DNA of 35,951 nt, from the NCBI GenBank assembly GCA_029933225.1, contig JAOZOO010000020.1, forward strand, positions 1 to 35,951. Reading direction: 5' to 3'. The notes beneath the pieces were generated by a model. That model was not told the DNA's origin and did no database searches. It saw nothing but the letters and a program-made list of their open reading frames with translations. Source of the DNA: Bacteroidales bacterium (GTDB lineage: Bacteria > Bacteroidota > Bacteroidia > Bacteroidales > F082). This document shows positions 6,557 through 32,693 of this stretch, one piece after another. Position 1 is the first letter of the stretch. Each line of letters starts with the position of its first letter. Position numbers and translations under genes: made by a program.

Positions 6557-7153
6557 CTACTCCTTATTCTGCGCTGCTTTCTCGACCAGGAATTTGAAGT
6601 CAGACAAATACTGGCTTAGCTTGTCATTCAGGTAAACATAAAAAGGCGGATTCAGTTCGATAGGAATCTTAACGGTTGTATAATTCCACCAGCCCCTTTC
6701 GTAAGGCACTTCCGGCGCCTGGTAGTCAAGATAATGCTCCCATAATTTGCCTTTGTCTTCCGGGCCGCGTATGATCACAAAAAACCATTTGAAATTGGCC
6801 CGGTTTTCATCATAACGGGAAATGTATATTTCGAGTTCGCCGCCCCTGGCTTCTTTTTCCAGTTCCATGAACTTACGATCGCGTTCTTCAGTGCTCCAGT
6901 TGTTTTCTTCCGCTTCTTTGGTGAGTTCCGCTTTCAGTTGAGTCAGATCTTTATATGCTATGGCTGTAATGGGCAGAAAATTATATGCTGCCGGCGCATG
7001 CATCACATGACCGAAAATGCGGGTGACGGCATAGCCGTTGAAATAGCGGGTTTCTTTGTCCTGCCACGTTTTATTGTAAAGCCGGGGGTTAATTTCCTGT
7101 GAATAAGCTGCGAAAAGGTTAAATAGTAAAGCAAAAAGAATCAGTTTTTTCAT
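6557..7153 (-). CDS. Secreted protein of unknown function
   Basis: I do not recognise this 198-residue protein. It has a clear signal peptide (M-K-K-L-I-L-F-A-L-L-F-N-L-F-A-A, cleavage near Y-S-Q at 17-19). The mature part has a central charged helical segment (about 70-105, rich in K and E), then an aromatic-rich portion with K-W-F-F-V-I-I-R-G-P-E-D-K-G and R-G-W-W-N-Y-T. It ends in an amphipathic helix (D-K-L-S-Q-Y-L-S-D-F-K-F-L-V-E). No cysteine or lipobox is present, so a soluble periplasmic or surface protein is likely. It is monocistronic, with 416 bp of non-coding sequence downstream and 157 bp upstream. Length and signal support a real gene; function is open. Confidence 0.75.
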   Translation of the reverse strand: MKKLILFALLFNLFAAYSQEINPRLYNKTWQDKETRYFNGYAVTRIFGHVMHAPAAYNFLPITAIAYKDLTQLKAELTKEAEENNWSTEERDRKFMELEKEARGGELEIYISRYDENRANFKWFFVIIRGPEDKGKLWEHYLDYQAPEVPYERGWWNYTTVKIPIELNPPFYVYLNDKLSQYLSDFKFLVEKAAQNKE

Positions 7154-7310: not shown

Positions 7311-8036
7311 TCAGAATCCTTTGACGACCTCTGCAAATTCAAAGATAAGTTCCGGTTCTTCTTCAAAACGGTTGCCGACGACAGCGATATCGGCTCCTGC
7401 TTCGAGAATGGATTTCATTTTTTCTTTGGTTCGAATCCCGCCGCCTACGATCAAAGGTACCTCGATGGATTGTTTCACAAAGCCGATCATTTCTTCGGGG
7501 ACGGTTTGTGAAGCGCCGCTTCCGGCATCCATATATATTAGTTTCAGCCCCAGCATTTCTCCGGCCATGGCTGTACAGGCGGCAATGTCTTTTTTGTCGT
7601 TGGGGATGGGGAATGAGTTACTCATGTATGTCACTGCTGTGGGTTTCCCGCTGTCGATAAGCATGTATCCGGTGGGAATGGTCTCGAGGCCGGCCAGCCT
7701 GATGTATGGGGCAGCCAGCACATGCATTCCGATAAGCATATCAGGGTTACGACCCGATATCAGCGAAAGAAAAAGCATGGCATCGGCATTGCGTGCAATC
7801 TGGTAAGTATTTCCGGGGAACAGGATGACGGGGATATCACTGTTTTCTTTTAGTGTTTTAACACAGTGGAACAGTGAATCGCTGGTCAGCAGGCTACCAC
7901 CGACAAACAAAAAGTCCACACCGGCTTTCTGGGATTTTCTGGCCACAAGTTCAAGCTGTTCCGGCGATAGTTTATCGGGATCGATGAGCACTGCCAGTTG
8001 CTTTTGCCCTTTGAAGAAATGATCAATGGTTTTCAT
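7311..8036 (-). CDS. Geranylgeranylglyceryl / heptaprenylglyceryl phosphate synthase (GGGPS/PcrB family)
   Basis: 241 residues from the ATG at 8036. The open frame extends to 8126, but those 30 residues are not family-like, and a TAnnTTTG-type box (8053-8060, minus) precedes the 8036 start. The enzyme joins sn-glycerol-1-phosphate to a polyprenyl diphosphate, the ether-lipid step best known from archaea. TIM-barrel markers are visible: L-I-D-P-D-K-L (about 17-23), F-V-G-G-S-L-L, I-L-F-P-G-N, Y-M-D-A-G-S-G-A, I-V-G-G-G-I-R and the phosphate-binding A-D-I-A-V-V-G-N-R-F at the end. Bacteroidota carry a known bacterial group of this family. The prenyl chain length cannot be read. It follows the TPR gene by 106 nt and may be the end of the same transcript. 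Confidence 0.92.
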   Translation of the reverse strand: MKTIDHFFKGQKQLAVLIDPDKLSPEQLELVARKSQKAGVDFLFVGGSLLTSDSLFHCVKTLKENSDIPVILFPGNTYQIARNADAMLFLSLISGRNPDMLIGMHVLAAPYIRLAGLETIPTGYMLIDSGKPTAVTYMSNSFPIPNDKKDIAACTAMAGEMLGLKLIYMDAGSGASQTVPEEMIGFVKQSIEVPLIVGGGIRTKEKMKSILEAGADIAVVGNRFEEEPELIFEFAEVVKGF

Positions 8037-8142
8037 CTGTCTTGCTTTGCTGCAAAAGTAGAAAAAATCCTGTGGAAGTAAGACGGGATGCAGAGTGGTT
8101 GACACGTGACAATTACGGATTATCAATCCTGATGATTGCCGA

Positions 8143-8760
8143 CTATTTGATCAACCCCAGTCCTTCGGTGGCAGACTTATCGCCCGGCTTGATGAGCAGT
8201 GCTTTCTGGAAAAGCACCCTGGCTTCACGGAATTTGCCCAGTTTGTAGTTGGTCCAGGCCAGCATGATCACCCCGTCGTAATCAAACGGATAATGGTTGA
8301 CCACTTTTTCTAAGTATTTGAATGCTGTTGTAAAATCCTCCCGGCCATAATAGATAACCCCCATCCTGTAATTGACTGTGGAATTTTCAGGATCAATTTC
8401 CAGGATTTCCTTGTAATATTTCTCCACCTGTGTCCAGTTGCCCATGGCTGCCGCCGGGTTGACAATGCCCAGCCGGGCTTCGATGGACATGGGTTTCAGC
8501 AGGATGCTTTTCTGGTAATAGGGCATGGATTCGTTGAACAACCCCGAAAGATAGGTCAGCCAGCCCAGTCTGAGATTGATCTCATACGATTCTTCATTAT
8601 AGACATCTTTCAGCACATTGATGGCTTTGCTGTACTCCCCGCCGTATTCCAGTTCGTAAGATTTCAGGAAAGCGGCTTGTGTTTGTTCAAAATTCTGGGC
8701 GATAGCTGCTGTTCCTAATGCAACAAAAACAACAAGCAGTATTCTTTTTAAAATGTCCAT
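8143..8760 (-). CDS. Periplasmic TPR-repeat protein
   Basis: 205 residues with a signal peptide (M-D-I-L-K-R-I-L-L-V-V-F-V-A-L-G-T-A-A-I-A-Q, cleavage after ~22). The mature part is built almost entirely of tetratricopeptide repeats, with the usual pattern of small residues and tyrosines: Y-S-K-A-I-N-V-L, F-N-E-S-M-P-Y-Y-Q-K-S-I-L-L-K-P, K-Y-Y-K-E-I-L-E-I-D-P, A-F-K-Y-L-E-K-V and A-R-V-L-F-Q-K-A-L-L-I-K-P. It should be a protein-binding scaffold in the periplasm. Its start overlaps the end of the TPR-barrel gene by 13 nt, so the two products are likely made together. It is the last gene of the run that starts with the PqqD-like protein. Confidence 0.88.
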   Translation of the reverse strand: MDILKRILLVVFVALGTAAIAQNFEQTQAAFLKSYELEYGGEYSKAINVLKDVYNEESYEINLRLGWLTYLSGLFNESMPYYQKSILLKPMSIEARLGIVNPAAAMGNWTQVEKYYKEILEIDPENSTVNYRMGVIYYGREDFTTAFKYLEKVVNHYPFDYDGVIMLAWTNYKLGKFREARVLFQKALLIKPGDKSATEGLGLIK

Positions 8761-10301
8761 TTTATTCCTCCGATTATATTTTGTGTTTGATAATTAAACA
8801 AAAAATTCTGATATCTTGTATGTTCCTGATCAAAAGTGAAATAATTTCCCGATTTGTCCATGTACCGGTAGTAAAGGCCCAACTCAAGATGTCTGGTCAC
8901 CATTACCGTAAAATTCAGCCCAAGACTCAGATTGATGTTTTCAGGCAGATTGTAAACAATGAAGGCATTATTTAGGTTAACGTTATTCAGGTTCCCAAAA
9001 TAAACATCTCCTTCAAGCCAGGCTGATTTAAAAAGTCTTATCCCCAGTTTTTGTATAAAAATGAAACGGTTTTCGGCGTTGTATCGCCCGGAATTGTTTT
9101 GTCCGTTGCCATGTCCTCTGCTGTTGCCGTTGTCATTATTATTTCCGGTGTTTTCCTGCGAGGAGCCATTAAAAAACAGAGCACCTGAAGACCCGTAAAA
9201 TGATGTATTTCCAAAAGGATAATACAGTGCAGAAAGCCCCAACTGAAGCTGGGTTCCCTTGTTGAGTTGTGAAAATGAACCGGTAAAAGAAAAAAGAACG
9301 GTATTGATGTCTTTTTCCAGATCGAATCCGGCTACCCAGTTCACAAACGAAGAATCAAGACTTGTAAAATTGTAGGAATCGGTTTGATAGTCAAACAACT
9401 CATATTCACCGGTGGCATCCACATAATAAGCCGTATCAGTGAAAGTAACGGCTTCGTAATTTGCTTTTGTTTTATTCACATTAAGGAACAGGACATTTGA
9501 ATAAAGGGTCAGCGCCCATCCTTTGTTGAACTGAAACCGCATATTCAGGTAAATTTCGTTTTGTGTCATGGGATTGCTGAAAGTCAACCTGTTTGTATCG
9601 GGAATAGTATCAGGATAACGAATATAGCCCCATGAAGTATCGATGGTAGTGGTACCCTCTTTATAGGTGATAAACTCAAAATTACTTCTCGTCTGAACGT
9701 TAATATTATTATAAGAAGCAAACAGGCTAACCGTTGGGGAAATATTAAACCTTAATCCGGCATGCAGATACCGTTCGTCGCCGTACATTTTTTGTTTGCC
9801 AAAAAGCGAATCGCTGCCCATTAAATATAGGTCGTTGTTTTTTTCGTAATTATTTGAGAATATATATCCGCCCATTACGTCAACAGATTCCACGGCTTTC
9901 ATGCGAGTGTTCAGCGATGATTTCATTGCCGGGTTAAATGTCCCGGCCAGTTTCCATGCCCTGTTTGTTTTTCCCATTTCAAGGTACGAATCGTAAAGGT
10001 ATCCCTGGGCTACCGGGTCGTTTTGGTTGAATTCCAGCGCTTTCTGAAAGTGTTTTGCCGCTATGGCCGGTTTTCCTGTTTCCAGGGCGGCAATGCCCAT
10101 TCGCATTCTCAAGTAGTAATAATCAATGTCATTTTTCAGGGCCAGTTTTCCGGTTTTCAAAACAGGCTTCCAGTTTTTATTCAGATAATGGTTGTATGTG
10201 ACAGAATCAATTTGTACAAAATCAGGTCTTTCCTGTCCGGTCATGCTGTTGGCCAGCATTAGAATCAGCACAATTGACGTAATTTTATCTATCGTTTTCA
10301 T
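8748..10301 (-). CDS. Outer-membrane beta-barrel protein with N-terminal TPR domain
   Basis: 517 residues. A signal peptide (cleavage near T-G-Q at 21-23) is followed by a short TPR segment (about 35-125: A-A-L-E-T-G-K-P-A-I-A-A-K-H-F-Q-K-A-L-E-F-N). From ~140 on there are alternating aromatic/polar beta strands (G-G-Y-I-F-S-N-N-Y, L-H-A-G-L-R-F-N-I, I-Y-L-N-M-R-F-Q-F, L-E-L-G-L-Y-Y-R-Y-M). The protein ends I-G-G-I-K-W-T-F; a terminal aromatic residue is the usual BAM recognition feature. Residues 379-408 are an N/G/S-rich low-complexity stretch, probably a surface loop. The ligand is unknown. It starts 11 nt after the UT-M23 fusion and overlaps the TPR gene, indicating a joint envelope role. 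Confidence 0.85.
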   Translation of the reverse strand: MKTIDKITSIVLILMLANSMTGQERPDFVQIDSVTYNHYLNKNWKPVLKTGKLALKNDIDYYYLRMRMGIAALETGKPAIAAKHFQKALEFNQNDPVAQGYLYDSYLEMGKTNRAWKLAGTFNPAMKSSLNTRMKAVESVDVMGGYIFSNNYEKNNDLYLMGSDSLFGKQKMYGDERYLHAGLRFNISPTVSLFASYNNINVQTRSNFEFITYKEGTTTIDTSWGYIRYPDTIPDTNRLTFSNPMTQNEIYLNMRFQFNKGWALTLYSNVLFLNVNKTKANYEAVTFTDTAYYVDATGEYELFDYQTDSYNFTSLDSSFVNWVAGFDLEKDINTVLFSFTGSFSQLNKGTQLQLGLSALYYPFGNTSFYGSSGALFFNGSSQENTGNNNDNGNSRGHGNGQNNSGRYNAENRFIFIQKLGIRLFKSAWLEGDVYFGNLNNVNLNNAFIVYNLPENINLSLGLNFTVMVTRHLELGLYYRYMDKSGNYFTFDQEHTRYQNFLFNYQTQNIIGGIKWTF

Positions 10302-10312
10302 GAGTCCGGTTG

Positions 10313-12514
10313 CTAAAATTTTCTGTGTGCTGTTAAAGATTTTCCCGAATGGTTGATTTCCAGTTTTTCAATTCCTTTTGGCGTAAGCTGAATGACAAAC
10401 CTGAATGTATCGTTCACTTTTTTTCTTCGTCCGAAAGCCGAGGAGGATTCGAGCACAATTCGTTCTGTTTTCCCTTTTTCAAGGGATTTGTAATTCAGCG
10501 TGAATTCTGCTTTAAGAAACTTAAAGAACGGGATCAGAAAATCCTGCAGGAAAAGCCACTTTTTATTTTGAAATACAGTTAATGGATAATTGTCTTTCAA
10601 CTGCATGTTTTTATAGAATGCAGCGACAACCTTGAAAGATGACAGATAGAAATAATAAAGCAATGAGTTCGATTTTCCACTGTACTGGGTAAAGAAAAAT
10701 ACGTCGCCTGTTTGCCTGAACCATGCTTTGGCCCCGGTATGCTGACAAACAAAATAGGTGTTGTTGTAAATGTCGGCTTCAATCAGCCATTCATGCAATA
10801 CGGTTTCTCCTTCTGTTTCCGTTTCAAAGCGTAATTTTTCTCCCGGAACAAAATGGTATGCTTTTTTGATGATCTCGTTGGTTGTCAGATTTGAAACCAT
10901 CTGTCCGCCTTTCGGTATTCCCGATAATTCAAAATGATAGTTGCCATTTTCCCTGACGATATACGACGAAATGGGATAACTGAGTGTTTTTGATCCGATA
11001 TCAGGTGTTGACTGAAACTGAAAGTGAATATGCGGTATCGGCGATCTGCCCGAATTACCACAATAACCGATCAGTTCACCCTGTTTCACAGTCTGCCCCT
11101 TTGTCACCTTAATACTGTCTTTTTTCAAATGACTTATCTGCGAGTACAACTTTTCGGCATGTTTGATCACAACAGAATTACCCCAGTTGTTTTCCATGTT
11201 CACATCCCCGATCTCGTTGTCATCCACGTCGTTTTTTATGGCCTCTACCGTTCCGTCGCCAGGGGCGATCACCGGTTTGTTGTAACAATAATAATCTTCA
11301 GACCTGTTCCCTGTATTGTCGTAAACCCTGCCCTCATCATCTGCAATCTCGAAATCCCAGGCATGTTTCCAGTTGTCTTTGTGTGTGTATTGACCATTGT
11401 GTGCCTGCGTCACTTTCCATTCTCCCCAAAACGGGAATTTCATCGCCACCCACGGCAGGTTTCCGAAACGATCCATGTAATTGTTGAAATTATAAACATG
11501 TTTTTCAGGTGAAAATTGCTGAATGGTGACCAGCGCCAGCTTTGTTACATCTTTCTCCCTGAATTTTAAAACATAAAGAAACAACAAGACAATGATGTTA
11601 AAAGGCAGCGAGAAAACAGAAAGCTGGAAATAAGAAAATATGAAAGATGTGCTGCTTAAAATGATAGCGATCAGCGGTGTCAGGAAGATGACCCAAAGTA
11701 CCGACCGGCGTGAGGGCACAATGAAAAAACCACCAACAGCAATGGCTGTCAGGATATAATTGAAACCGATATAGCTGTAGGTTAACTCGTTGATATCTGC
11801 CCCGATGAAAAAATAGAAATAGTAAGCTGTGTAAAATCCAATGAGCGACAAGAGAAAAGCAATACGTGAATAAAAGAGAAGGCCAATGGCAATCAGGATA
11901 CCTGCGAACATGTGGTACTGAAAAAGAATGGCGCTGAGCGATTTGAAAAAGATACGTAACGATTCGGGCACAGCAAGATTGTTAAACCATTCATACAGCT
12001 TAACCATTGTCAGCCCGCCGATGGCATACATATCATTCAGGTTGTAAACACCGCGTTCACTGATGTTCAGCGCGGAATACCCTTTGGTGGCAATGATGAC
12101 CATCCATATTCCGAGCAAAAACGGAATACTCAGATAGGGCAATCCGTATTTTCCGAGAATGCCTTCCATGGCAACAGAAAAGAAAAGGGTAATCACCGAA
12201 ATGAGGATCAGGATGATGTAAAACTCCACACCTGGCTGGTAATAAATACCCACGCCCAGGCCCACAAGCAAAGAGTTGAACCCGTAAGCCCCTTCCCTGA
12301 TTTTGATCTTGCTTAGTCCCAGCAGCGATGCCACTGAATTTGAGATTACTACGGCAAGTAGCCCGGCCAGCCCGGCATAGAAGTCGAAAAAAGTCACCAA
12401 CAGCAGGATGACTGCAAAAACAGGATTCTTGGAAAAGAAAATCTGGCCATAGCTGTTTAGAATACAATGCCAGGCACCAAGAAGCTGTTGTTTTGTTTTG
12501 TTTTCTTCCATCAA
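10313..12514 (-). CDS. Urea-transporter-like membrane domain fused to an M23 (LytM) peptidase domain
   Basis: 733 residues. Residues ~15-320 are strongly hydrophobic and resemble the UT channel family. The first half has Q-I-F-F-S-K-N-P (24-31) and G-A-Y-G-F-N-S-L-L-V-G (76-86). The second half has I-G-F-N-Y-I-L-T-A-I-A-V-G-G-F-F (249-264), but its urea-motif segment (Q199-Y-H-M-F-A-G) is degenerate. A linker leads to an M23 domain with the zinc ligands H384 and D387 (H-A-W-D) and H495/H497 (H-I-H-F). H462 and the G-x-x-V-K-Q-G-E-x-I-G-Y motif (around 473-484) are also present. About 230 C-terminal residues are unrecognised. M23 enzymes cut peptidoglycan cross-bridges. The gene overlaps the eIF2B-like gene by 4 nt and is followed 11 nt later by the barrel. 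UT identity is moderate; M23 identity is firm. Confidence 0.87.
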   Translation of the reverse strand: MMEENKTKQQLLGAWHCILNSYGQIFFSKNPVFAVILLLVTFFDFYAGLAGLLAVVISNSVASLLGLSKIKIREGAYGFNSLLVGLGVGIYYQPGVEFYIILILISVITLFFSVAMEGILGKYGLPYLSIPFLLGIWMVIIATKGYSALNISERGVYNLNDMYAIGGLTMVKLYEWFNNLAVPESLRIFFKSLSAILFQYHMFAGILIAIGLLFYSRIAFLLSLIGFYTAYYFYFFIGADINELTYSYIGFNYILTAIAVGGFFIVPSRRSVLWVIFLTPLIAIILSSTSFIFSYFQLSVFSLPFNIIVLLFLYVLKFREKDVTKLALVTIQQFSPEKHVYNFNNYMDRFGNLPWVAMKFPFWGEWKVTQAHNGQYTHKDNWKHAWDFEIADDEGRVYDNTGNRSEDYYCYNKPVIAPGDGTVEAIKNDVDDNEIGDVNMENNWGNSVVIKHAEKLYSQISHLKKDSIKVTKGQTVKQGELIGYCGNSGRSPIPHIHFQFQSTPDIGSKTLSYPISSYIVRENGNYHFELSGIPKGGQMVSNLTTNEIIKKAYHFVPGEKLRFETETEGETVLHEWLIEADIYNNTYFVCQHTGAKAWFRQTGDVFFFTQYSGKSNSLLYYFYLSSFKVVAAFYKNMQLKDNYPLTVFQNKKWLFLQDFLIPFFKFLKAEFTLNYKSLEKGKTERIVLESSSAFGRRKKVNDTFRFVIQLTPKGIEKLEINHSGKSLTAHRKF

Positions 12515-13344
12515 TCCGTAAATACTTTTTTTACCAGTGCCAGCGGCGTGAACTCAAAATACAAATTATGTACCGTAATCCCCTGTGTGTTTCCGGGGTC
12601 CAGCTCTGCGGCCGGTTTTTCTCTTTCAACGGACAATTTATTTATTTGTTCCGTTGTCAGCGCAGTATCGCTTATTAATTTCCTTTTTTCAGCCAGCAAA
12701 TAAAGCGGTTTTTTAAAATCTTCCAGCAATAGTGCCAAAGGATAAGAGCCGGCTTTATTCAGGAAGGCATCTTCGCGGATAAGATCTGCGCCGAGGATCG
12801 CCATGTCAATGTCATGCATGAAATTGCTTAATGCATCTTCGTGAATAAGATGGGTTTCAAACCCCATACTGCTGATTGTTTTTGCCTGAACCAGCCCTTC
12901 CCCGGCGGGTGACGAGTATGTTTGCCAAACAACCGGAAAGGTCTCTTTTTCTGCCAAATGGCCGAAGAGATTATGAACGGCGGTGCTGTTGCTGTGAACA
13001 AGAACGTTTTTTCCTTTAAAACCGATTTTTGCGATCAGATTCAGCGATGCTTTGTTTCGACTGTCTTTCCAGGTATTGATATATGTGTTCACATAAGCTG
13101 TGAGTTGTTTTCCTTTAATGACCGTTTCATCCTGAAACCGTCCGGTCAACACTTTCACAAAATGCAACAACACGCCAAACTGCGGGAATTGCTCCTGAAT
13201 TTTATAAAGCGCTTCCAGAAGAATATCTTTTGCGATTTCATCTTTCTCGTTTCCCAGGTCAATGAGTTTCAATTGAACCTTGTTCAATATTGCTCCCGAC
13301 CCCGACAGGTTGTCTTTGATTATGTCGCTGAAAAGATTATTCAT
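12511..13344 (-). CDS. eIF2B / ribose-1,5-bisphosphate isomerase / MtnA-like protein
   Basis: 277 residues with the C-terminal Rossmann-type domain of the eIF2B-related family. It shows V-L-V-H-S-N-S-T-A-V (114-123), the hallmark G-A-D-L-I (185-189, D187) followed by N-K-A-G-S-Y (196-201), and P-L-Y-L-L-A (about 213-218). Enzymes of the family (MtnA, R15P isomerase) isomerise a phosphorylated sugar using a Cys in the L-T-H-C-N motif plus the Asp of G-A-D. Here the Cys position is S118, so classical isomerase activity is doubtful. The N-terminal half is helical, as in the family. It overlaps the UT-M23 start by 4 nt, indicating translational coupling. Family is fairly sure; activity is unknown. 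Confidence 0.8.
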   Translation of the reverse strand: MNNLFSDIIKDNLSGSGAILNKVQLKLIDLGNEKDEIAKDILLEALYKIQEQFPQFGVLLHFVKVLTGRFQDETVIKGKQLTAYVNTYINTWKDSRNKASLNLIAKIGFKGKNVLVHSNSTAVHNLFGHLAEKETFPVVWQTYSSPAGEGLVQAKTISSMGFETHLIHEDALSNFMHDIDMAILGADLIREDAFLNKAGSYPLALLLEDFKKPLYLLAEKRKLISDTALTTEQINKLSVEREKPAAELDPGNTQGITVHNLYFEFTPLALVKKVFTD

Positions 13345-13427: not shown

Positions 13428-14786
13428 CTAAAGTTCAAAGGTCTTTAAATGTTCCGGTACGTTTTCAAATTCCAGCAGACGATCCAGCGTTTCCCGGTCA
13501 CGGACCACATGCACATTGCTTTCGAGGTCGATCATAACGATCCTCGGTCGCAGGGTGATGAACTGCATCCATTGGGTCATGTTGTAAGCGCCCACAGTGT
13601 GAATGACTACATGGTCCCCCTTGTTCAGCAAAGGAAGACTGATGTTTTCACGGATGACGTCAATGTTCATGCAAAGCGGTCCGTAAACCACCGTGTCTTC
13701 GGTGTGCTGTGTAAAGGGTTGTGCCGGTGTTATCTTGTGGTCGTACCAGAATGAGGTGAATAACACATTCACACCGATATCAATGATGGTTGAGCGCCTG
13801 CCGTCGGACAGCCGCTTGTTGGAAATGACGGTCCCCAGCAAAAAAGCTGCATCGTCTATCAAAGCCCTTCCTGTTTCAAGGATAAGCAACGGCAGTTTAT
13901 CCGGCTTGAAGTTGCTGTTGATCAGGGCACTTGTGATGGCTTCCGCAAAGTCGTTGATAGACGGGTTGGTATCAACACCCGGAAGGTATGCGCCTTTGAG
14001 GTTATTCTGGGAAGCAAATCCGCCGCCCATGTCAATGTACTGTATTTCATGTCCGTATTTATCCCGGATGCCGATGGCGAGGTCGGCCAGTTTATTTGCA
14101 GCAACGGCATAAGCATTTGACGACAGCATGAATGTCCCAATATGTGTATGCAAACCGACGAGATCCATGACATCCGACCGCATGATCTTGTTCAGCGCAT
14201 CCCATGCCTGGCCGTTTTCGTAGTTGAAGCCAAAACGGTCCCACATGGGATAAATGCCCGTATCCATATTGACCCGGATGGCCACCTGTGCCCTGGTGTC
14301 CATATTTTCTGCCAGTTTCCGGATGGTATATAATTCGTCGAGGTGGTCAATATGGATCAATGAGCTGTTTTTAATGGCCTTTTCAAGGTCTTCTTCCGTT
14401 TTATCGGGACCGTTGAAAATGATCTTGGTGCCGTCCACACCATTGTGTATGGCTTTGTCGTACTCGAATCCCGAGACCACCTCGGCCCATGAACCTTCCT
14501 GGTGGAAGGTGCGGCATACGGCATCGAGGTAATTGGTTTTGTAAGACCAGGCAAACTGCACTTTAGGATAGCGTGTCTCGAATGCTTTCCGCGCGTTTCG
14601 TATGTTATTACGTATGGTCTTTTCGGATATGACGAACAGGGGTGATCCGTGTTCATCAATCATGTCTTTTACAGCTACATTATCAATATGTGTCATCGGC
14701 TTGTACTCGGTGCGCATGCCGAATTTGTTGGGCATGTTACTCTCGAGTTTCTTGATTACCGGCCGTTCGTATCTTTGTTTTTCCAT
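13428..14786 (-). CDS. PLP-dependent decarboxylase, DapDC/BtrK-like, with a leader-like N-terminal tail
   Basis: 452 residues, fold-type III PLP enzyme. The core has W-S-Y-K-T-N with the PLP lysine K83, H-T-H-I-G (213-217), I-D-M-G-G-G-F (251-257), E-T-G-R (304-307), the C-terminal catalytic G-P-L-C-M-N (C372) and G-A-Y (399-401). All are equivalent to diaminopimelate decarboxylase landmarks, so it is probably active. Enzymes of this group decarboxylate D/L-amino acid centres; BtrK acts on a carrier-bound glutamyl group. The first ~23 residues (R-Y-E-R-P-V-I-K-K-L, Y6, P9, I11) precede the catalytic region and look like a RiPP leader. It lies downstream of a PqqD-like gene and an ATP-grasp gene, so ordinary lysine biosynthesis is less likely. 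The substrate is unknown. Confidence 0.87.
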   Translation of the reverse strand: MEKQRYERPVIKKLESNMPNKFGMRTEYKPMTHIDNVAVKDMIDEHGSPLFVISEKTIRNNIRNARKAFETRYPKVQFAWSYKTNYLDAVCRTFHQEGSWAEVVSGFEYDKAIHNGVDGTKIIFNGPDKTEEDLEKAIKNSSLIHIDHLDELYTIRKLAENMDTRAQVAIRVNMDTGIYPMWDRFGFNYENGQAWDALNKIMRSDVMDLVGLHTHIGTFMLSSNAYAVAANKLADLAIGIRDKYGHEIQYIDMGGGFASQNNLKGAYLPGVDTNPSINDFAEAITSALINSNFKPDKLPLLILETGRALIDDAAFLLGTVISNKRLSDGRRSTIIDIGVNVLFTSFWYDHKITPAQPFTQHTEDTVVYGPLCMNIDVIRENISLPLLNKGDHVVIHTVGAYNMTQWMQFITLRPRIVMIDLESNVHVVRDRETLDRLLEFENVPEHLKTFEL

Positions 14787-14834
14787 TTTGAGTAAGTTAT
14801 TTAATTTCTGATTATTACTTCATTACGCCAATAA

Positions 14835-15365
14835 GGAATAATGGAATGATGGAATAGAGGAATTGTGGGTGGGGTTACACAAAAGTATCATCCCATCCTC
14901 CTTCCAGTCTCTTTTTTTGCAATGATTCTATTAGTTTTATTAACTGGTTTTCGACTTTAAAATGTAACTCATCTAATTGATTAAAATCTTCATCGGATAA
15001 TTGTCCCGCCTTGTTTAAACTGTAACAGGAAGAATGAAATTCTCCGGAAGAACCAAGACTAATATTTAAAAAGTTCAAATATTCATTCAAGCTTCTCCTG
15101 CAATAAACTTCGGCAATATTCCTTGATATTGAATGACAAGCGTCCACTGTATTACTGACAATTTTCCCCAATTCGAAAGGGTAGCTTCGGAATATCTTTA
15201 TACTAAGTACAAAAAGCTCAACAGCATCCTGCCAAACCCGCAGTTTTTTAAATCCACGGTTTTTATTTTTCCTTTCAACCATTTTTAATGATTCTTTTTA
15301 TTTTTTCCTATCATCCACCATTCCAACCTTCCACTATTCCATCACTCCATCACTCCATTCTTCCC
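14835..15365. repeat. Inverted repeats bracketing the four-helix-bundle gene
   Basis: The left block (14835-14869) is made of GGAATAATGGAATGATGG-type units. The right block (15314-15365) is its degenerate complement. TGATGGAATAGAGGAA (14847-14862) matches the complement of 15329-15344 at 15 of 16 positions. The right block runs up to the ATP-grasp stop codon. A similar block occurs at 35911-35943. Confidence 0.65.
14875..15282 (-). CDS. Four-helix-bundle protein (23S rRNA intervening-sequence type)
   Basis: 135 residues, all helical. It carries the family signature R-V-W-Q-D-A-V-E-L (near 15-23), S-I-S-R-N-I-A-E near 52-59, R-S-L-N-E-Y-L-N-F-L-N-I-S-L-G-S-S-G-E near 63-81 and a C-terminal helix with L-x-x-L-I-x-L-I-E-S-L-Q-K-K. 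Members were first seen in spirochaete rRNA intervening sequences and are frequent as stand-alone genes in Bacteroidota. Their function is not established. The gene sits between the ATP-grasp and decarboxylase genes on the same strand, with 82 and 88 nt gaps filled by the inverted GGAATGATGG-type repeats. It therefore looks like an insertion into an existing operon, not a pathway member. Confidence 0.9.
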   Translation of the reverse strand: MVERKNKNRGFKKLRVWQDAVELFVLSIKIFRSYPFELGKIVSNTVDACHSISRNIAEVYCRRSLNEYLNFLNISLGSSGEFHSSCYSLNKAGQLSDEDFNQLDELHFKVENQLIKLIESLQKKRLEGGWDDTFV

Positions 15366-16411
15366 TACAGCTCTCCCGTCGTAGATATTTTCTCAAACTC
15401 GCTCAAATCCACCATCATATCCCATGAATAGCGGATAAACATTTTGCCGATGTCATATTTTTCGAAGGGTTTTACCTCATTGCCCAACGCAAGGTTGACG
15501 AGCGCTTCGGGGATGTTTTGCCCAACACCCACGGCAAGGTATATCCATGCAGGGATGCGGGGATTTATTTCAAGGAGTACATATTCTCCCTCTTTGTTTT
15601 TCATCAGTTCCAGCTCAAAACCGCCCCGCCATTTTGTTTTGGCGATAAAACTTCGGGTAAGCTCCAGCAGGCGATCATCGCTTACGGCAATGCCACCCCA
15701 TGCTTTACCTATGTCGGTGATGTATTGTTTTCGCATGGGCACAGCGGCGATGGTGTTTCCTTTCCCGTCACCCAAGCCGGTAACATTAAATTCGGTACCA
15801 TGGATAAATTCCTGAATGATTATCGGCAAACCCCATTTGGAAGTAATGGTATTGAAAGCCATGGTTGCCTGCTCAAGATTGTAAACCACTTTGGCATCGT
15901 AGTATTTCCCTTTGACCAAAACAGGCCATTCAAATTCCCTGGCGATCTCCGCTATTTTTCTTGTTTCGTAAACGGCTTCGCTTTTGGGAACGGGGATATC
16001 GTATTTCTCTCCGAACTCGGGCAGATTAACTTTCAGCCGTTCTTCAAACTGTTCCAGTGTGGGCAGGAAAGTGTGGATGCCGAGTTTCTTCAATTTAGGT
16101 TCCAGTTTGATAAACGAATACAGTTCAGCATCAAAATTCGGGATAACGATATCCATTTTTTCCTGCTGCTGGATGTATTCGAGACGTTCAAACAATAATT
16201 CGGTACCCGCCGAAGGATAAGGAATCTGATAAACTTTATCCACCAGTTCATGCATATAGATGCCCGGCTCGAGCGATTCGTAGGACAAGCCGATGATGCG
16301 CACATCGAATGATTCGGACTCACGCAACGCCCGGATCACCGGAATACCCGGCCCGGGATTGTCAATGGCGTTCAGCGCCGTTACGCCGATAGTATATTTA
16401 GTCTTTTTCAT
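15365..16411 (-). CDS. ATP-grasp ligase
   Basis: 348 residues from the ATG at 16411. A TTG three codons upstream is possible but adds nothing. The N-terminal pre-ATP-grasp domain starts Y-T-I-G-V-T-A-L-N-A. The ATP-grasp core shows W-P-V-L-V-K-G-K-Y-Y (nucleotide-binding lysines, about 165-174), I-I-Q-E-F-I-H-G-T-E-F-N-V-T-G and the metal-binding L-L-E-I-N-P-R-I-P-A-W (about 300-310). Such enzymes join a carboxylate to an amine or thiol via an acyl phosphate. The nearest known types are carbamoyl-phosphate-synthase-like and amino acid ligases. Its start lies 14 nt inside the PqqD-like gene, so the two are translationally coupled. The substrate cannot be read. Confidence 0.87.
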   Translation of the reverse strand: MKKTKYTIGVTALNAIDNPGPGIPVIRALRESESFDVRIIGLSYESLEPGIYMHELVDKVYQIPYPSAGTELLFERLEYIQQQEKMDIVIPNFDAELYSFIKLEPKLKKLGIHTFLPTLEQFEERLKVNLPEFGEKYDIPVPKSEAVYETRKIAEIAREFEWPVLVKGKYYDAKVVYNLEQATMAFNTITSKWGLPIIIQEFIHGTEFNVTGLGDGKGNTIAAVPMRKQYITDIGKAWGGIAVSDDRLLELTRSFIAKTKWRGGFELELMKNKEGEYVLLEINPRIPAWIYLAVGVGQNIPEALVNLALGNEVKPFEKYDIGKMFIRYSWDMMVDLSEFEKISTTGEL

Positions 16412-16673
16412 TATCGTCAATTAAACCGTATTGTTTCAACATGGTAATAAAATCATAAAGGTCTTTGTCAATGGTCGGCGCATCGGTTTCATAATTTTCC
16501 AGAATATGATTGCTGATGTCCTGCGTCGGCATTTCTTTTTTCAACAGTTCCATGATTTCCATCCCAATGGGATTAACGGAAAAGGATTCGCCGGATGACG
16601 GATTAAACACGAACCCGGAATCACTGATGGCAATGTTCTTTTTTATCTTCATAACGTTCTGATTTTGTTGCAT
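16398..16673 (-). CDS. PqqD-like (RRE-fold) peptide chaperone / carrier
   Basis: 91 residues (84 if M8 is the start). It matches the PqqD pattern: a short N-terminal beta part (K-I-K-K-N-I-A-I-S-D-S-G-F-V-F), S-V-N-P-I-G-M-E-I-M-E-L-L (about 32-44), then I-S-N-H-I-L-E-N-Y at 53-61, D-K-D-L-Y-D-F-I-T-M-L at 69-79 and a final Y-G-L-I. PqqD and the related RiPP recognition elements bind leader peptides and present them to tailoring enzymes. It is the first gene of the run and overlaps the ATP-grasp start by 14 nt. No radical-SAM partner or separate precursor peptide was found nearby. That makes the leader-like tail of the decarboxylase a candidate ligand, as inference. Confidence 0.85.
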   Translation of the reverse strand: MQQNQNVMKIKKNIAISDSGFVFNPSSGESFSVNPIGMEIMELLKKEMPTQDISNHILENYETDAPTIDKDLYDFITMLKQYGLIDDNEKD

Positions 16674-16819: not shown

Positions 16820-18094
16820 TTAATCTGTGTAGAAATCAATCATGCGTTGTATGGCTCTTGTGCAGACCGGGCAGAAGGTGTCACCTGAAAAGCTGTTCAT
16901 CAGACAGTCATGATAAGGGCGGTAGATTCCTTTTGCCGAATACCCCGCTCCTTCAAAAACGCCCACCGTATGATAATATTTTTCAATATCCGGCGTGGGA
17001 ATGGGTGTTTTCTTTTTCATCATGTCTTTCCATTTCCGATCAAAATCCACAAGCGTTGTCAGGTTGGGCTCCCAGGGTTCTGCTTTCAGGTTATAAAAAT
17101 CGTTGTAGCCTGTTTCCGAGGTGTAATATTCATCTCCCAATCCTGCAAAACCATGGCCAAATTCATGAATCATGATCTTGGGCGCAAAAGCGCTGCCGAT
17201 CACGCTGACATTATAATAGTTATAAATCGAACCGCCGCCGTATTTTTTGCTGTTTACCAGGATGTAAATCTGGTCGTAAGGGGCATTGGCTGCCAGGTCG
17301 CAAACACTTTTATAATCCCCGGTCATCAGATAACGTTCCGTGTCGAATGTATAATACGAGGTATTCAAAAGGGTTCGCTTCCAGGTATGCGTTCCAGGGT
17401 TGTCGGTTCCCTTTTCCGGTGATGGTGCCAGAATACCCCGGATGTTGAATTTGTCTTTGTTTTCCTTGTAAGGAGAAAAAGAGAAAAGTTCTCCGGCAAA
17501 TTGTTGGCAATCTTTGATGAATTTTCCCATTTCTTCTTCGGTATATCCTTCGGGAAGGATGACAATATCCACTTTGTTTGCCGGATCGCCGGTAACCTGC
17601 ACATCAAAAGATGGATAAACCAGCCGCCTGTCACGTTTGATGAATTTGTCAAAAGGATCCACGATGTATTCAAACTTTTTCACAAACTCACCGTCCCGGT
17701 TGCGGCTGTAAAACTCCACACGTACTTTTTCTTTCGGAAAGGGAAAAATCACGCTTTCTGAAAAAGTACGCCGGTTTTTTTTGGCTTCATCCGTTGTCTG
17801 CCACTCGCCAAAGAGTGTTGAATAACCATGCGAATAGATTAGCGAATCATTTCTGATTAGAAAAACTTTAAAAAAATATTTTCCGTATTCAAAAGGGTCA
17901 ACAAGGTTGGTTTTTGTACCACCCCAGTAAGGTTCCATAATCAATTCATCAATGGAATAAGTCTCCGTGCTGTCGGTTCCGGTATGGTAATATCCAATTC
18001 GGAGTGTCTTGTCTTTGAAATAATTGTCAAACTGTTGCCCGAAACCTGCACCGGCCAAAAACAGGAAGGCGAATAATAGCCATATTTTTTTCAT
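16820..18094 (-). CDS. M64 family (IgA-peptidase-type) secreted metallopeptidase
   Basis: 424 residues with a signal peptide (M-K-K-I-W-L-L-F-A-F-L-F-L-A-G-A-G-F-G-Q-Q, cleavage near 20). The N-terminal ~160 residues form a beta-rich domain. The catalytic domain then shows V-D-I-V-I-L-P-E-G-Y-T (175-184), A-P-Y-D-Q-I-Y-I-L-V-N-S, and the zinc motif H-E-F-G-H-G-F-A-G-L-G-D-E-Y (H310, E311, H314, D321). These are the M64 family hallmarks. The C-terminal C-P-V-C-T-R-A-I-Q segment is also typical. Members are widespread in Bacteroidota; cleavage of immunoglobulin A is known only for the founder. The gene is divergent from the sigma factor and separated from the PqqD-like gene by 146 nt. Confidence 0.93.
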   Translation of the reverse strand: MKKIWLLFAFLFLAGAGFGQQFDNYFKDKTLRIGYYHTGTDSTETYSIDELIMEPYWGGTKTNLVDPFEYGKYFFKVFLIRNDSLIYSHGYSTLFGEWQTTDEAKKNRRTFSESVIFPFPKEKVRVEFYSRNRDGEFVKKFEYIVDPFDKFIKRDRRLVYPSFDVQVTGDPANKVDIVILPEGYTEEEMGKFIKDCQQFAGELFSFSPYKENKDKFNIRGILAPSPEKGTDNPGTHTWKRTLLNTSYYTFDTERYLMTGDYKSVCDLAANAPYDQIYILVNSKKYGGGSIYNYYNVSVIGSAFAPKIMIHEFGHGFAGLGDEYYTSETGYNDFYNLKAEPWEPNLTTLVDFDRKWKDMMKKKTPIPTPDIEKYYHTVGVFEGAGYSAKGIYRPYHDCLMNSFSGDTFCPVCTRAIQRMIDFYTD

Positions 18095-29234: not shown

Positions 29235-30620
29235 TTATTTATAAACCTCCCTCACAAATTTCTCCACTTCGGGGACGCCGCCCTGGTAAACGAGGTAGCC
29301 GTTGTAGGGCTCGCGCAGGGTGATTTCGTCGTTGACGGGTGTCAGCATCATTTCTTTCACTTTTTGCGGGTCGTCGGTTTGTCCGAGAATCCAGGAGAGT
29401 TTCACCCAGGCAACCTCGGGCAGCATGTTGCCTGCCGGGATGATGCCTTTGGCCATCATGTCGCGGCCGGTGTCGTAAACGAACATGTGCACATACCCCC
29501 AGATGGTTTGCAAGGTCATATACATGTGCACCCCTTTAGCCTGTGCCCGTTCGATGGCGGGATAGAGTTCCTTGTTCACATGGCCCAGCCCGGTTCCTAC
29601 AAAAACGATCCCCCGGTATCCGGCATCAATCATTGCGTCAAGCACATCGGGTTTCATGCCGGGATAATAATACAGCATGGTCACCTCGTCGCTGAAATAA
29701 GGCAATATTTTCACATTCCGGTCGCTGCGGCGTCTGTTGTAGTTTTCCTTGATGGGGATGATCTCCTTGCGGTTGATACGTGCCAGCGGTGTGTCGCCGA
29801 TGGTGCGGAAGGTGGAACGGTAAGAGGAGTGCATCTTGCGTACTCTGGTGCCTTTATGCAGCAGTCCGTATTTGTCGGATGTCGGGCCGAACATGCACAC
29901 CATCACCTCGGCAATATCGGAATGGCCGGCGGCTTTCATGGCGTGCATCAGGTTCAGCGCTGCATCGGAGCTGGGCCGGTCGGATGAACGTTGTGAGCCA
30001 ACCAAAACCACAGGCACCGGAAGGTTCTGCACCATGAAGGTCAGCGCCGCACCGGTGTGATGCAGTGTATCAGTACCATGCCCGATGACAATGCCGTCAA
30101 CTCCTTTTTTAATTTCTTTTCCAATGGCTTTGGCCAAAGCCATGTATTGTTTCGGCCCCATGTTTTCGCTGAACACGGCAAATACTTTTTCGGTTTCCAG
30201 GTTGCAGATATCGGCCAGCTCGGGCACGGCGCCGTACAGCTCGCCGGGGGAAAAGGCGGGGATAACCGCCCCCGTCCGGTAATCCAGCCGGGAAGCAATC
30301 GTGCCACCTGTGCCAAACAGTTTTACCTTCGGCAGGCCGGGCGTTACGGGAAACTGCTTTTCCGGTATTTTGTAATTGGCCTTTTTATACCCCGTCTCTT
30401 TCATTTTTTTAATGGTACGGACATCAATCCCGATATTGTAACCCGTAATGATCTTGATGACAATGTGCTGGTCGTCATCATTTTCTGACCGCGGCAATAC
30501 GGTTCCTTCAAAAGTTCCCCGGGTGGTTTCTGCTTTCACCTGTCCCCATACCCGTACTTTATATTTTTTCAAAATTTTAAGTGCATCGCCCTTATATCCC
30601 TGGAAAATATCTTCTGTCAT
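29235..30620 (-). CDS. gatD: Glu-tRNA(Gln) amidotransferase subunit D (GatD, archaeal type)
   Basis: 461 residues. The N-terminal ~90 residues form the Tudor-like domain of GatD (V-R-V-W-G-Q-V-K, then G-T-V-L-P-R-S-E). The asparaginase-like domain follows: F-G-T-G-G-T-I-A-S (T107), G-H-G-T-D-T-L (T183, D184), V-G-S-Q-R-S-S-D-R-P-S-S-D and V-R-K-M-H (K262), the four catalytic positions of GatD. Ordinary asparaginases are ~330 residues and lack the N-domain. GatD hydrolyses glutamine and passes ammonia to GatE to convert Glu-tRNA(Gln) to Gln-tRNA(Gln). Its partner gatE lies 132 nt upstream on the same strand. GatDE is regarded as an archaeal system, so horizontal origin is likely. Confidence 0.93.
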   Translation of the reverse strand: MTEDIFQGYKGDALKILKKYKVRVWGQVKAETTRGTFEGTVLPRSENDDDQHIVIKIITGYNIGIDVRTIKKMKETGYKKANYKIPEKQFPVTPGLPKVKLFGTGGTIASRLDYRTGAVIPAFSPGELYGAVPELADICNLETEKVFAVFSENMGPKQYMALAKAIGKEIKKGVDGIVIGHGTDTLHHTGAALTFMVQNLPVPVVLVGSQRSSDRPSSDAALNLMHAMKAAGHSDIAEVMVCMFGPTSDKYGLLHKGTRVRKMHSSYRSTFRTIGDTPLARINRKEIIPIKENYNRRRSDRNVKILPYFSDEVTMLYYYPGMKPDVLDAMIDAGYRGIVFVGTGLGHVNKELYPAIERAQAKGVHMYMTLQTIWGYVHMFVYDTGRDMMAKGIIPAGNMLPEVAWVKLSWILGQTDDPQKVKEMMLTPVNDEITLREPYNGYLVYQGGVPEVEKFVREVYK

Positions 30621-30752: not shown

Positions 30753-32693
30753 TTATATTCTCTCGCTTAATTCTGTTAAACTCATGTTGCCGATGGCGAC
30801 ACTTCTCAATTGTCCCATCACCCAGTTTCTTCGGTTGGTTTCACCCCCTTTTTTGTGCCCGTTTGCAAATTTTTCATTTAAAACAGGAATCTGTTCAAGG
30901 ATTGTTTCCGGGCTTACCCTTTTGAATTTTATGGAGTTGAGGATTGACTCGAAATCCATTTTGGCATTTTGCATCAAAACAGGAAGCATGTCTTCAGCGA
31001 GCGTGAAATCCAGGTTTTCTTTTTTCAAAAAAGCAAACAGATGATACAAAATCGAATATTTGAAATCATGTGTGCAACATATTTTGTTTTCCACCGATTT
31101 CAGTGTGTGGCCGAAAAACGTCCCTACGAATTTCGGGTCAATATCCAGCTCTTCGATAATCCGTGAGATGAGGTCAAAATGGTTTTTTGAAAGGATATAA
31201 ATATAAGTGTCATCAGGTATTCCCCATGCTTTCATTTTTTTATACCTGTCGATAATATCTTCCGGCAGGTTTTTCTTCAGGCTTTCGATAAATTCGTCTT
31301 CCAGGGGAATGGGTGCCGAGTCGGTATCGGGGTACATCCTGTCAGCTCCCGGCAACACCCTTTCGAAAACAGTAGTGCCGTCTTCAAATGATTTTCGGGT
31401 CTCGTTGGGTATGCCCTCAAGCGCCATCCGGCATCTTTCTTCCACGGTTTCCAAAGCTGTCGGAATGTCTTCTGCAGGACCGGTGATAATGATCTGGGCG
31501 TCATTGTCCCGCGCATCTAACAGTTCCCTGATCTCTTTCCATTGTTTCCCGTTTACAGAGGGCTCAAATTCTTCGGAATGCAGCATGTTGGGATGCTCAA
31601 TGCAGGCGATTACTTTCAGGCGGCCGGAAAGCTCATCAGCGAACATTTTTCCCGGCTGGGTAAACCACGATAAAGCGCCTTTGAAATCAGGCAGGTTTAC
31701 CGCCACAAGTTTTTCAGCATGACCGGGTAACTTTACGCCTTTCAAAACATGTTTTTCCAGCTCAACCGAATTGATCTTCCATTTGTCCGGTTTTTTTATC
31801 CGTTCTTTTAACTCATCCCTCAAAAGCAAAAGCGACCACTGCCTGAAAGCTTCATTGTGTGTTAGTTTCGGTATCCATTTGGTATGTGCCACACCTTTGA
31901 TCTCCACCCGTGAGCCACCCCGGCAGCTTACGTTCACATCCTGCCGGCCTGCGCCCATTCCCGTTCGTACTTTGCCGGTGCTCCGGTTCAGGAAACGGAT
32001 ATAATCACAGGCATCTTTCACTTCATAAGGATTCAGGCAATCAGGATAAGTTACCGTTTCGATGAGCGGCATGCCGAGGCGGTCGGTTTTATACACCCGC
32101 GTATGACCGATGTCCGAAATCTCGCGGCAGGAGTCTTCCTCGATGCTCAACTGGATCAGACGTATTTTCTTATAAGGCAACTCAATCTCCCCTTCTACGC
32201 CGAGGATAGCCGTTCGCTGAAATCCTGTCGGTATGCTTCCATCAAGATATTGCTTCCGGGTGATGTGCACCTCCCCCACAATGTTCAGTTTCGACAACAA
32301 CGATATTTCAAGGGCAATTCCCAGCGCTTCCCGGTTCATGGGGAAGGGTGGCGTGTCATCCACTTCGTAAGTGCAGGCCGACTGGTTTTTCAGGCGATAA
32401 ATGATCTGTTTTCTGGTCTTGAATTCCATCAGTGCCGTCCCGTCGTATTCGCCCAGCTCGCTCAAGGTGGGACGCATGTGGCGGATAAGTTCGGCATCGT
32501 AATCATCATGACCGTTATAAATCCCCGCCGGACAATGACAAAAAAGTTTTTCTTTTGTAAGCAACTGCTGATGAACCTCCAGCCCCGACATAAAACCGAT
32601 GCGGTCGTAATCTTTCTGTGTGGCATCTTTTAGTGAAATATATCCTGCTTTCCCGCGGCTTTCTTCATAATTGCGTTTCGGATCGAATTGCAT
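30753..32693 (-). CDS. gatE: Glu-tRNA(Gln) amidotransferase subunit E (GatE, archaeal type)
   Basis: 646 residues, close to archaeal GatE (about 620-640) and longer than GatB (about 480). It starts with the GatB/GatE kinase domain: G-L-E-V-H-Q-Q-L-L-T-K-E-K-L-F-C-H-C-P (about 38-56). D-D-T-P-P-F-P-M-N, L-D-G-S-I-P-T-G-F-Q-R-T (about 149-160), I-E-E-D-S-C-R-E and G-M-G-A-G-R-Q-D-V-N-V-S-C near 245-257 follow. The middle holds the AspRS-like insertion that only GatE has (about 290-430). The C-terminal ~150 residues form the helical YqeY-like tail domain that binds the tRNA. GatE phosphorylates Glu-tRNA(Gln) and amidates it with ammonia from GatD. Confidence 0.93.
   Translation of the reverse strand: MQFDPKRNYEESRGKAGYISLKDATQKDYDRIGFMSGLEVHQQLLTKEKLFCHCPAGIYNGHDDYDAELIRHMRPTLSELGEYDGTALMEFKTRKQIIYRLKNQSACTYEVDDTPPFPMNREALGIALEISLLSKLNIVGEVHITRKQYLDGSIPTGFQRTAILGVEGEIELPYKKIRLIQLSIEEDSCREISDIGHTRVYKTDRLGMPLIETVTYPDCLNPYEVKDACDYIRFLNRSTGKVRTGMGAGRQDVNVSCRGGSRVEIKGVAHTKWIPKLTHNEAFRQWSLLLLRDELKERIKKPDKWKINSVELEKHVLKGVKLPGHAEKLVAVNLPDFKGALSWFTQPGKMFADELSGRLKVIACIEHPNMLHSEEFEPSVNGKQWKEIRELLDARDNDAQIIITGPAEDIPTALETVEERCRMALEGIPNETRKSFEDGTTVFERVLPGADRMYPDTDSAPIPLEDEFIESLKKNLPEDIIDRYKKMKAWGIPDDTYIYILSKNHFDLISRIIEELDIDPKFVGTFFGHTLKSVENKICCTHDFKYSILYHLFAFLKKENLDFTLAEDMLPVLMQNAKMDFESILNSIKFKRVSPETILEQIPVLNEKFANGHKKGGETNRRNWVMGQLRSVAIGNMSLTELSERI

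Follow-up and report, generated by a model that had tools for sequence, protein, structure and literature searches.

Gene Composition of the Locus

The window analyzed here (35,951 nucleotides; positions 1 to 35,951 of contig JAOZOO010000020.1, assembly GCA_029933225.1) belongs to a Bacteroidales bacterium of the family F082. On the minus strand it carries a unit of six genes encoding a PqqD-like protein, an ATP-grasp ligase, a pyridoxal 5'-phosphate (PLP)-dependent decarboxylase, a urea-transporter (UT) domain fused to an M23 peptidase domain, an outer-membrane-looking protein and a tetratricopeptide repeat (TPR) protein. The unit, found in many Bacteroidota, probably serves to ligate an amino acid, to trim the conjugate and to carry the product through the envelope.

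The PqqD-like protein (91 amino acids, 16398..16673) is placed among the RiPP recognition elements (RREs; RiPP, ribosomally synthesized and post-translationally modified peptide) by PF05402 (48.1 bits, gathering cut-off 23.4). The end of its gene overlaps the ATG (16411) of the ATP-grasp gene by 14 nt, as noted in the first-pass annotation of this DNA, which was made from the letters and their open reading frames (ORFs); the two genes overlap, by 4–23 nt, in 95 of 104 homologous loci as well. The ATP-grasp ligase (348 amino acids, 15365..16411) is assigned by PF15632 (44.3 bits, cut-off 29.1). The next member of the unit, an alanine-racemase-fold decarboxylase of the DapDC type (452 amino acids, 13428..14786; PF02784 and PF00278 above cut-off), has an N-terminal tail with the motif YERPVIKKLESNMPNKFG (residues 6–23, 14718..14771). 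Downstream of it are the UT–M23 fusion (733 amino acids, 10313..12514; PF03253 204.9 bits at a cut-off of 25, PF01551 62.3 bits), the probable outer-membrane protein (517 amino acids, 8748..10301) and the TPR protein (205 amino acids, 8143..8760; TPR_2 64.4 bits). The conserved unit extends downstream to 8143.

Conservation of the Unit in Bacteroidota

Conservation was assessed in 100 genomes drawn from the family of the window (family set), in 395 genomes drawn from the phylum Bacteroidota (phylum set) and in a contig scan with a single genome per species (84,980 species). The scan returned 440 stretches with relatives, and the best 80 of the 440, which partly overlap the genomes of the family set, were used. 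They are metagenome-assembled genomes titled Bacteroidetes, Bacteroidales, Bacteroidia, Bacteroidota or Chlorobiota, apart from two titled Draconibacterium orientale, one "uncultured bacterium" and one "Alphaproteobacteria".

The unit is common in Bacteroidota. In the family set, the ATP-grasp gene was found in 46 of 100 genomes, one of which (G071) has a 30% paralogue, which leaves 45 genomes with the unit; in all 29 family loci fetched from other genomes the PqqD-like and decarboxylase genes flank the ATP-grasp gene in the same order. In the phylum set, E thresholds of 1e-40 for the ATP-grasp ligase and 1e-110 for the decarboxylase alignment were applied, the latter chosen to exclude the diaminopimelate decarboxylase LysA. 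The ATP-grasp gene was detected in 34 of 395 genomes, a separate search with the decarboxylase returned the identical 34, and all 29 fetched phylum loci contain the three genes.

The 79 scan loci (L112 omitted) and 29 phylum loci form a set of 108, in 104 of which the PqqD-like, ATP-grasp and decarboxylase genes stand together in that order. Two exceptions are contig ends (L048, L102), one has the decarboxylase in two frames (L055), and one is a true separation (L110, genome G494), in which the genes are scattered and the tailed decarboxylase and the UT gene are retained on other contigs. Since the three genes are kept together across loci, chance adjacency is excluded. The first-pass annotation had named these genes as a group and proposed such a neighbourhood survey; its group is real and conserved, so that its refuting condition of genes not kept together does not hold, but a gene inserted in it and the downstream genes to 8143 had been missed.

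Several loci have peculiarities of their own. The decarboxylase of L055 (from about 2883) is read in frames of 228 and 185 residues, which points to a broken gene or an assembly error. An apparent fusion of ATP-grasp and decarboxylase in L112 was rejected as a false frame, joined through a run of N (read as X) near 6700. L097 has two PqqD genes, the best-scoring one (842-1090) about 5.5 kb upstream and the other directly before the ATP-grasp gene. Cassette matches with identical scores occur at both ends of one contig (L162, G223 C1), probably through terminal redundancy of a circular assembly. The distant paralogue of G071 (L166, contig C7; 27–30%) lies in a cassette-free genome in a different neighbourhood, and the only plasmid relative of the ATP-grasp ligase at E 1e-20 is from Streptomyces (30%).

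The Decarboxylase and Its Relatives

The catalytic residues K83 and C372, read as intact in the first-pass annotation, are present in the decarboxylase and, together with H213, H215, G254-G256, E304-x-G306-R307 and Y401, are invariant in 39 homologues of less than 80% identity; their roles are those known from the family. K83, C372 and the two Pfam domains give the enzyme the features of an alanine-racemase-fold PLP decarboxylase. Among solved structures FigC/FslC (PDB 7kh2) comes closest in sequence, profile and fold, before DapDC and BtrK. The enzyme scores below the cut-offs of both the FslC model NF041039 (238.5 bits vs. 500) and the LysA model TIGR01048 (225.2 bits vs. 297.9).

The decarboxylase could be an ordinary LysA acting on free diaminopimelate, with functionally unrelated neighbours. 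In the window's own genome (92% complete) it is the only PF02784 protein, with no other notable TIGR01048 match; its LysA score is not far under the cut-off, and in three distant members the LysA scores exceed those with FslC. On the other hand, GPLCMNID replaces the LysA motif GPxCESSD in 103 of 105 cassette enzymes, while the other two (L095, L111) end at contig ends; in L164 and L165 the segment reads GPLCMQID and GPMCMQID, respectively. Moreover, a strong PF02784 match of LysA size is present as well in 12 of the family's 45 cassette genomes. Six of these proteins were fetched, and all are LysA above cut-off (350–398 bits) with GPxCESSD and without the tail. A seventh fetched protein (L173) proved to be a different, arginine-decarboxylase-like enzyme. 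In the cassette-free genus g14 there is likewise no match of LysA size, only frames of 634–694 residues (arginine-decarboxylase size, by length) or none; the absence of LysA therefore seems usual in the family of the window. The decarboxylase also occurs in the same genomes as the ATP-grasp ligase. The first-pass annotation had attached weight to the possible lack of another lysA in the genome. That lack holds for the incomplete genome of the window, but a LysA role is disfavoured because true LysA co-occurs in relatives and the CESSD motif is missing; judged by sequence, the identification with LysA is unlikely, and a LysA with unrelated neighbours is highly improbable.

FigC decarboxylates an amino acid that has already been conjugated in a preceding ligation step (PMC7857480), and SbnH, AcsE, MccE and BtrK of the same clade are described as acting on modified or conjugated substrates (PMC7857480, PMC8503589). 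In FigC, R387 and N389 are proposed citrate contacts, from docking (PMC7857480). In a HMMER alignment counted from FigC C354 they correspond to Q405 and M407 here, of which Q405 is invariant and M407 nearly so among the 39 sequences; the distal part of the substrate should therefore differ from that of FigC.

The N-Terminal Tail and the PqqD-Like Protein

Residues 1–31 of the decarboxylase lie ahead of the enzyme fold: the alignments of solved relatives begin at residue 24 or later, and those of FigC at 28–32. The pattern [YF]E[RKS]Px[IVL]x9K[FYIAM]G occurs there with fixed spacing in 105 of 105 tabulated decarboxylases, beginning with Y in 100 and with F in 5; it was framed after the first alignments had been seen, so the count measures conservation and is not a blind prediction. 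Three loci of four further phylum genomes (L162, L163, L164) fit it as well. Among the 39 sequences, E7, P9, K21 and G23 are invariant, but none of residues 24–31 is. On average, residues 6–24 (0.71) are as conserved as the domain (0.72), and residues 25–31 are less so (0.43). In the AlphaFold2 monomer of the window decarboxylase, residues 1–25 have a predicted local distance difference test (pLDDT) score below 50 in a model that is otherwise confident (mean 87.0). A tail that is conserved yet apparently disordered looks like a docking motif.

Discrete lasso-peptide RREs recognize the leader motif [Y/W]xxPx[L/V/I/F/A] (PMC13381572); elsewhere the lasso motif is given as YxxP, and that of groups including PqqD as W/Y/LxxP/L/I (PMC12710340). 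The first part of the tail (Y/F-E-R-P-x-I) resembles the lasso leader motif in sequence. A loose search for the tail motif in 1.42 Mb from 109 loci matched 107 decarboxylases, among them those of L055 and L112, and a further 40 places, which, judged by eye, have no common sequence or position. No separate precursor ORF with the motif was found in these loci, precursors without the motif not being sought. The first-pass annotation had seen no separate precursor peptide, which agrees with this search, but a leader-like peptide does exist, fused to the decarboxylase.

The profile of the PqqD family finds four PDB sequences: TbiB1 (2.3e-13), TfuB1, a lasso PqqD-family chaperone and a PqqD-family protein. 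TbiB1 and TfuB1 are lasso RREs. The protein scores below the cut-offs of the lasso RRE model NF033536 (28.8 bits vs. 80) and the pyrroloquinoline quinone (PQQ) PqqD model TIGR03859 (18.5 bits vs. 46). Its invariant residues are A15, G20, F23, G28 and N34. The simplest reading suggests the decarboxylase tail as its ligand.

The PqqD-like protein had been proposed at first as carrier or presenter. A covalent carrier similar to LysW or an acyl carrier protein could be imagined for a small protein whose gene overlaps the ATP-grasp gene, and S17 is 96% conserved, which leaves such a role a small probability. Against it, the window protein has no Cys, only 8 of 107 homologues have any, no Lys is conserved, and the last four residues take 76 different forms among the 107. 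This idea is disfavoured and appears extremely unlikely.

The tail could instead act on the decarboxylase itself, in regulation or assembly, by participating in the dimer or forming an active-site lid; the PqqD-like protein would then serve the ATP-grasp ligase or an unlinked peptide encoded elsewhere in the genome. The active site of FigC's enzyme family lies at the dimer interface (PMC7857480), within possible reach of the tail, and contact between tail and PqqD-like protein is itself inferred indirectly. Nevertheless, the tail is of low confidence in the model (a monomer, so dimer contact is still possible), its motif is of the type bound by RREs, and a tail search in the own genome gave just a single weak second match (45% over 20 residues, E 0.95). 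A regulatory or assembly role of the tail is regarded as unlikely.

In another scheme the tail is the substrate: the RRE presents it, the ATP-grasp ligase loads K21, and decarboxylation proceeds in cis, so that the enzyme is a self-carrier or the tail is cut off as a peptide product. The invariance of K21 and G23, equal to that of the YxxP part, is consistent with this, as are the predicted disorder of the tail and the binding by RREs of known systems of peptides destined for modification. Conversely, K and G may be mere binding contacts, L165 has A in place of G, a protease or cleavage site was not identified, and it would be unusual for an enzyme to act as its own carrier. We consider the scheme distinctly unlikely. 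Its self-carrier version, with Lys21 loaded, decarboxylation in cis, and the product released and exported via the urea-channel/M23/outer-membrane apparatus, is improbable too; if true, it would be a RiPP-style pathway with a "precursor" built permanently into an enzyme. In the reading preferred here, the tail is a docking element.

The ATP-Grasp Ligase

E266, E268, E281, N283 and R285 are invariant in 45 ATP-grasp sequences. They form the motif E..E-I-N-P-R, the metal/ATP motif of ATP-grasp enzymes; fold and motif are both present. The predicted model (pLDDT 91.6) matches 2pn1 best (Z 31.0, root-mean-square deviation (rmsd) 2.5, 302 residues). Behind it, all close to one another, come biotin carboxylase 3rv3 (Z 26.8, rmsd 3.3, 316 residues), PurD 3lp8 (Z 26.6, rmsd 3.0, 310 residues), L-amino-acid ligase 3vot (Z 25.0, rmsd 3.7, 314 residues) and PylC 4ffr (Z 24.8, rmsd 2.8, 276 residues). 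These matches of a predicted structure fit an amino-acid ligase, without naming the substrate. By profile the first match is carbamoyl-phosphate synthase, and the profile matches span many ATP-grasp enzymes.

The C-terminus of the ligase, ISTxGEL (15365-15400), is unusually conserved (G346 invariant, E347 94%, L348 77%) and could be a contact with the PqqD-like protein or the decarboxylase.

The Downstream Genes

A UT gene lies downstream of the decarboxylase, within 6 kb, in 54 of the 56 loci with 6 kb of room. Of the two others, L043 has a UT gene by another scan and the genome of L089 has one on another contig. Within the family set, UT and ATP-grasp occur together in 44 genomes, UT alone in two (G049, G053) and ATP-grasp alone in one (G070); in G049 and G053 the decarboxylase matches start at contig bases 7 and 136, respectively. 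The association has a Fisher value of 9e-25, though the genomes are related and the value is not an independent-sample probability. In the phylum set, every one of the 34 cassette genomes has a UT, as do 10 further genomes. In these 10 cassette-free genomes (L182-L185 and six more) the UT frame has just 280–332 residues and is a stand-alone UT, while cassette UT frames have 689–769 residues, with the exceptions of G354 (535) and G104 (365, split in two).

The M23 domain was identified by Pfam in three UT proteins (window, L156, L161), and M23 patterns are present in UT proteins of other loci (TH-x8-DF in 61 of 62, H-[IL]-H-[FI] in 52 of 62). The unit gives fused UT–M23 proteins a biosynthetic context. 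A count of the urea-pore motif gave none in 24 of the 62 UT proteins.

The 517-residue protein is probably an outer-membrane protein, since the sequence has a signal-like start, a strand-rich look and F as its last residue. Its sole Pfam match is TPR, under cut-off, and one distant counterpart has a porin match likewise under cut-off; 37 of 63 homologues end in F, W or Y, some being cut by contig ends. The gene for this protein and the TPR gene are conserved downstream, in the order UT–outer membrane–TPR near the window and UT–TPR–outer membrane in several more distant genomes.

A pathway that imports or consumes urea, or a solute resembling it, via UT could also be considered, with the ligase, similar to carbamoyl-phosphate synthase, acting on a carbamoyl or urea-derived group. 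It would account for the PF03253 domain and for the first ATP-grasp profile match. However, that match is one of many ATP-grasp classes, no urease or similar protein is found among 29 window proteins scanned against Pfam, and the UT domain is fused to M23 and followed by the outer-membrane-looking and TPR genes. A urea pathway is accordingly very unlikely.

Proposed Pathway

The following sequence of events is proposed tentatively, as the preferred reading, and is rated as possible, somewhat short of probable: the RRE docks the decarboxylase tail onto the ATP-grasp ligase, ligation precedes decarboxylation, and the product is handled at the envelope. The PqqD-like RRE would bind the disordered tail through Y/F-x-x-P-x-I/V/L and, its gene overlapping that of the ligase, would hold decarboxylase and ligase together, with no precursor peptide docked. 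The ATP-grasp ligase could couple the side chain of an amino acid to a partner molecule, and the FigC-like decarboxylase would then remove the alpha-carboxylate of the conjugate, yielding a small amide-bearing amine. At the envelope, the urea-channel/M23 fusion, the outer-membrane-looking protein and the TPR protein may handle this product or its polymer.

The order of ligation and decarboxylation is reasonable because the nearest solved relative, FigC/FslC, acts on a conjugated amino acid. A presenter with ligation followed by decarboxylation had been suggested by the first-pass annotation and is plausible: FigC/FslC is the nearest relative of the one enzyme, and the fold of the other is near L-amino-acid ligases and PylC.

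Several observations weigh against this sequence of events. YxxPxI is a short motif, whose published form begins with Y or W, and 5 of the 105 tails have F; the equally conserved K-x-G is unaccounted for by lasso-type binding. In the tail of L165, Y, P, L and K are retained, but E is replaced by T and G by A. The window enzyme scores higher with FslC than with LysA, yet in three distant cassette enzymes the LysA score (218–245 bits) slightly exceeds that with FslC, below both cut-offs. The FigC clade also includes diaminopimelate decarboxylases and D-ODC, which use free amino acids (PMC7857480), and therefore clade membership alone does not settle the substrate. The assignment of the 517-residue protein to the outer membrane was made from sequence features, and the direction and cargo of the UT domain are likewise conjectural.

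Accessory and Neighbouring Genes

Between the ATP-grasp and decarboxylase genes of the window lies a free-standing gene of the 23S-rRNA-IVP four-helix-bundle family (14875..15282, minus strand; PF05635 61.6 bits). Besides the window, it is found at this site only in loci L013 and L040 (the same contig stretch), and among the 29 fetched family loci it is present in one. The L013 protein, from another genus, is 71% identical to that of the window over residues 54–135. The gene is probably a hitchhiker, and a working role in the unit was rejected on account of its rarity. An IF-2B-family protein (277 amino acids, 12511..13344, minus strand; PF01008 87.4 bits) is an optional member, encoded between the decarboxylase and UT genes in 9 of 80 loci.

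Directly after the TPR gene, on the same strand, lies a PcrB-family gene (7311-8126). Upstream of the unit, again on the same strand, is an M64 peptidase gene (16820-18094), kept in close relatives and absent from most farther loci. Two adjacent genes (29235-30620 and 30753-32693), whose domains are of the GatD-type asparaginase and GatB/GatE catalytic kinds, resemble a GatDE amidotransferase pair; GatDE is an archaeal amidotransferase, here in a Bacteroidota genome.

Anti-phage defence was rejected as a role, PADLOC having given no match for 7 proteins. A promoter scan found fewer sites than in shuffled sequence (15 vs. 19.4); terminator-like sites were more numerous (18 vs. 10.6, standard deviation 3.3) and spread over both strands.

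Comparison with Known Systems

FigC is the N-citrylornithine decarboxylase of the rhizoferrin pathway (PMC7857480). In pairwise alignment FigC/FslC and the decarboxylase share CM-x-x-D, GAYN and a W-x-RFG segment. The FigC partner is a NIS (nonribosomal-peptide-synthetase-independent siderophore) synthetase, whereas here it is an ATP-grasp ligase; the tail and a score less than half of the FslC cut-off set the present enzyme apart as well. With LysA it has the fold and catalytic residues in common, and differs in the score below TIGR01048, the lack of CESSD and the N-terminal tail.

The butirosin system (BtrI/BtrJ/BtrK) pairs the ATP-grasp enzyme BtrJ with an alanine-racemase-fold decarboxylase, BtrK, of the same structural family as the decarboxylase described here. 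BtrK is a weaker match than FigC, and no BtrI-like acyl carrier protein is found among the 29 window proteins, the rest of the genome not being searched. LysW and other amino-group-carrier systems combine a small protein with an ATP-grasp enzyme; LysW has zinc-binding Cys residues and a conserved acidic C-terminus, neither of which occurs in the PqqD-like protein. The PQQ pathway, in which PqqD has the partners PqqE and PqqA, differs by its radical-SAM protein, and the PqqD-like protein falls below the PQQ model. The first-pass observation that neither a radical-SAM enzyme nor an acyl carrier protein lies nearby is upheld by Pfam for the 29 window proteins (small ORFs partly scanned).

Work by Iyer et al. 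on amidoligases could describe related operons. Graspetide ATP-grasp enzymes modify a genetically linked precursor; here, no separate ORF with the tail motif is present in the 109 loci, other kinds of precursor not being sought. In passages of a graspetide survey (PMC8939145), PqqD is mentioned by way of analogy and in a single reference, and the word "decarboxylase" does not occur. No paper combining the genes of the unit was found in the open-licence literature searched, in agreement with the first-pass view of a possible undescribed pathway. The components are known; their combination, the enzyme-borne RRE-type motif and the fused UT–M23 protein are, as far as searched, undescribed within that literature. 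The unit makes an uncharacterised metabolite directly testable.

Lasso systems offer the closest parallel for the RRE. The RRE is discrete in both, TbiB1 and TfuB1 are the nearest solved proteins, and their type of ligand motif resembles the decarboxylase tail. Here, however, the motif is on an enzyme and begins with F in 5 of 105 cases, the score is below NF033536, and no lasso protease or cyclase is among the Pfam matches of the 29 window proteins. RREs are markers of RiPP clusters, and their expected ligand is a precursor peptide. In this unit an enzyme carries the sole leader-like sequence found, a placement suggesting RRE–tail docking as a mode of assembly of a small-molecule pathway; if true, this would change the mining of RRE-marked clusters.

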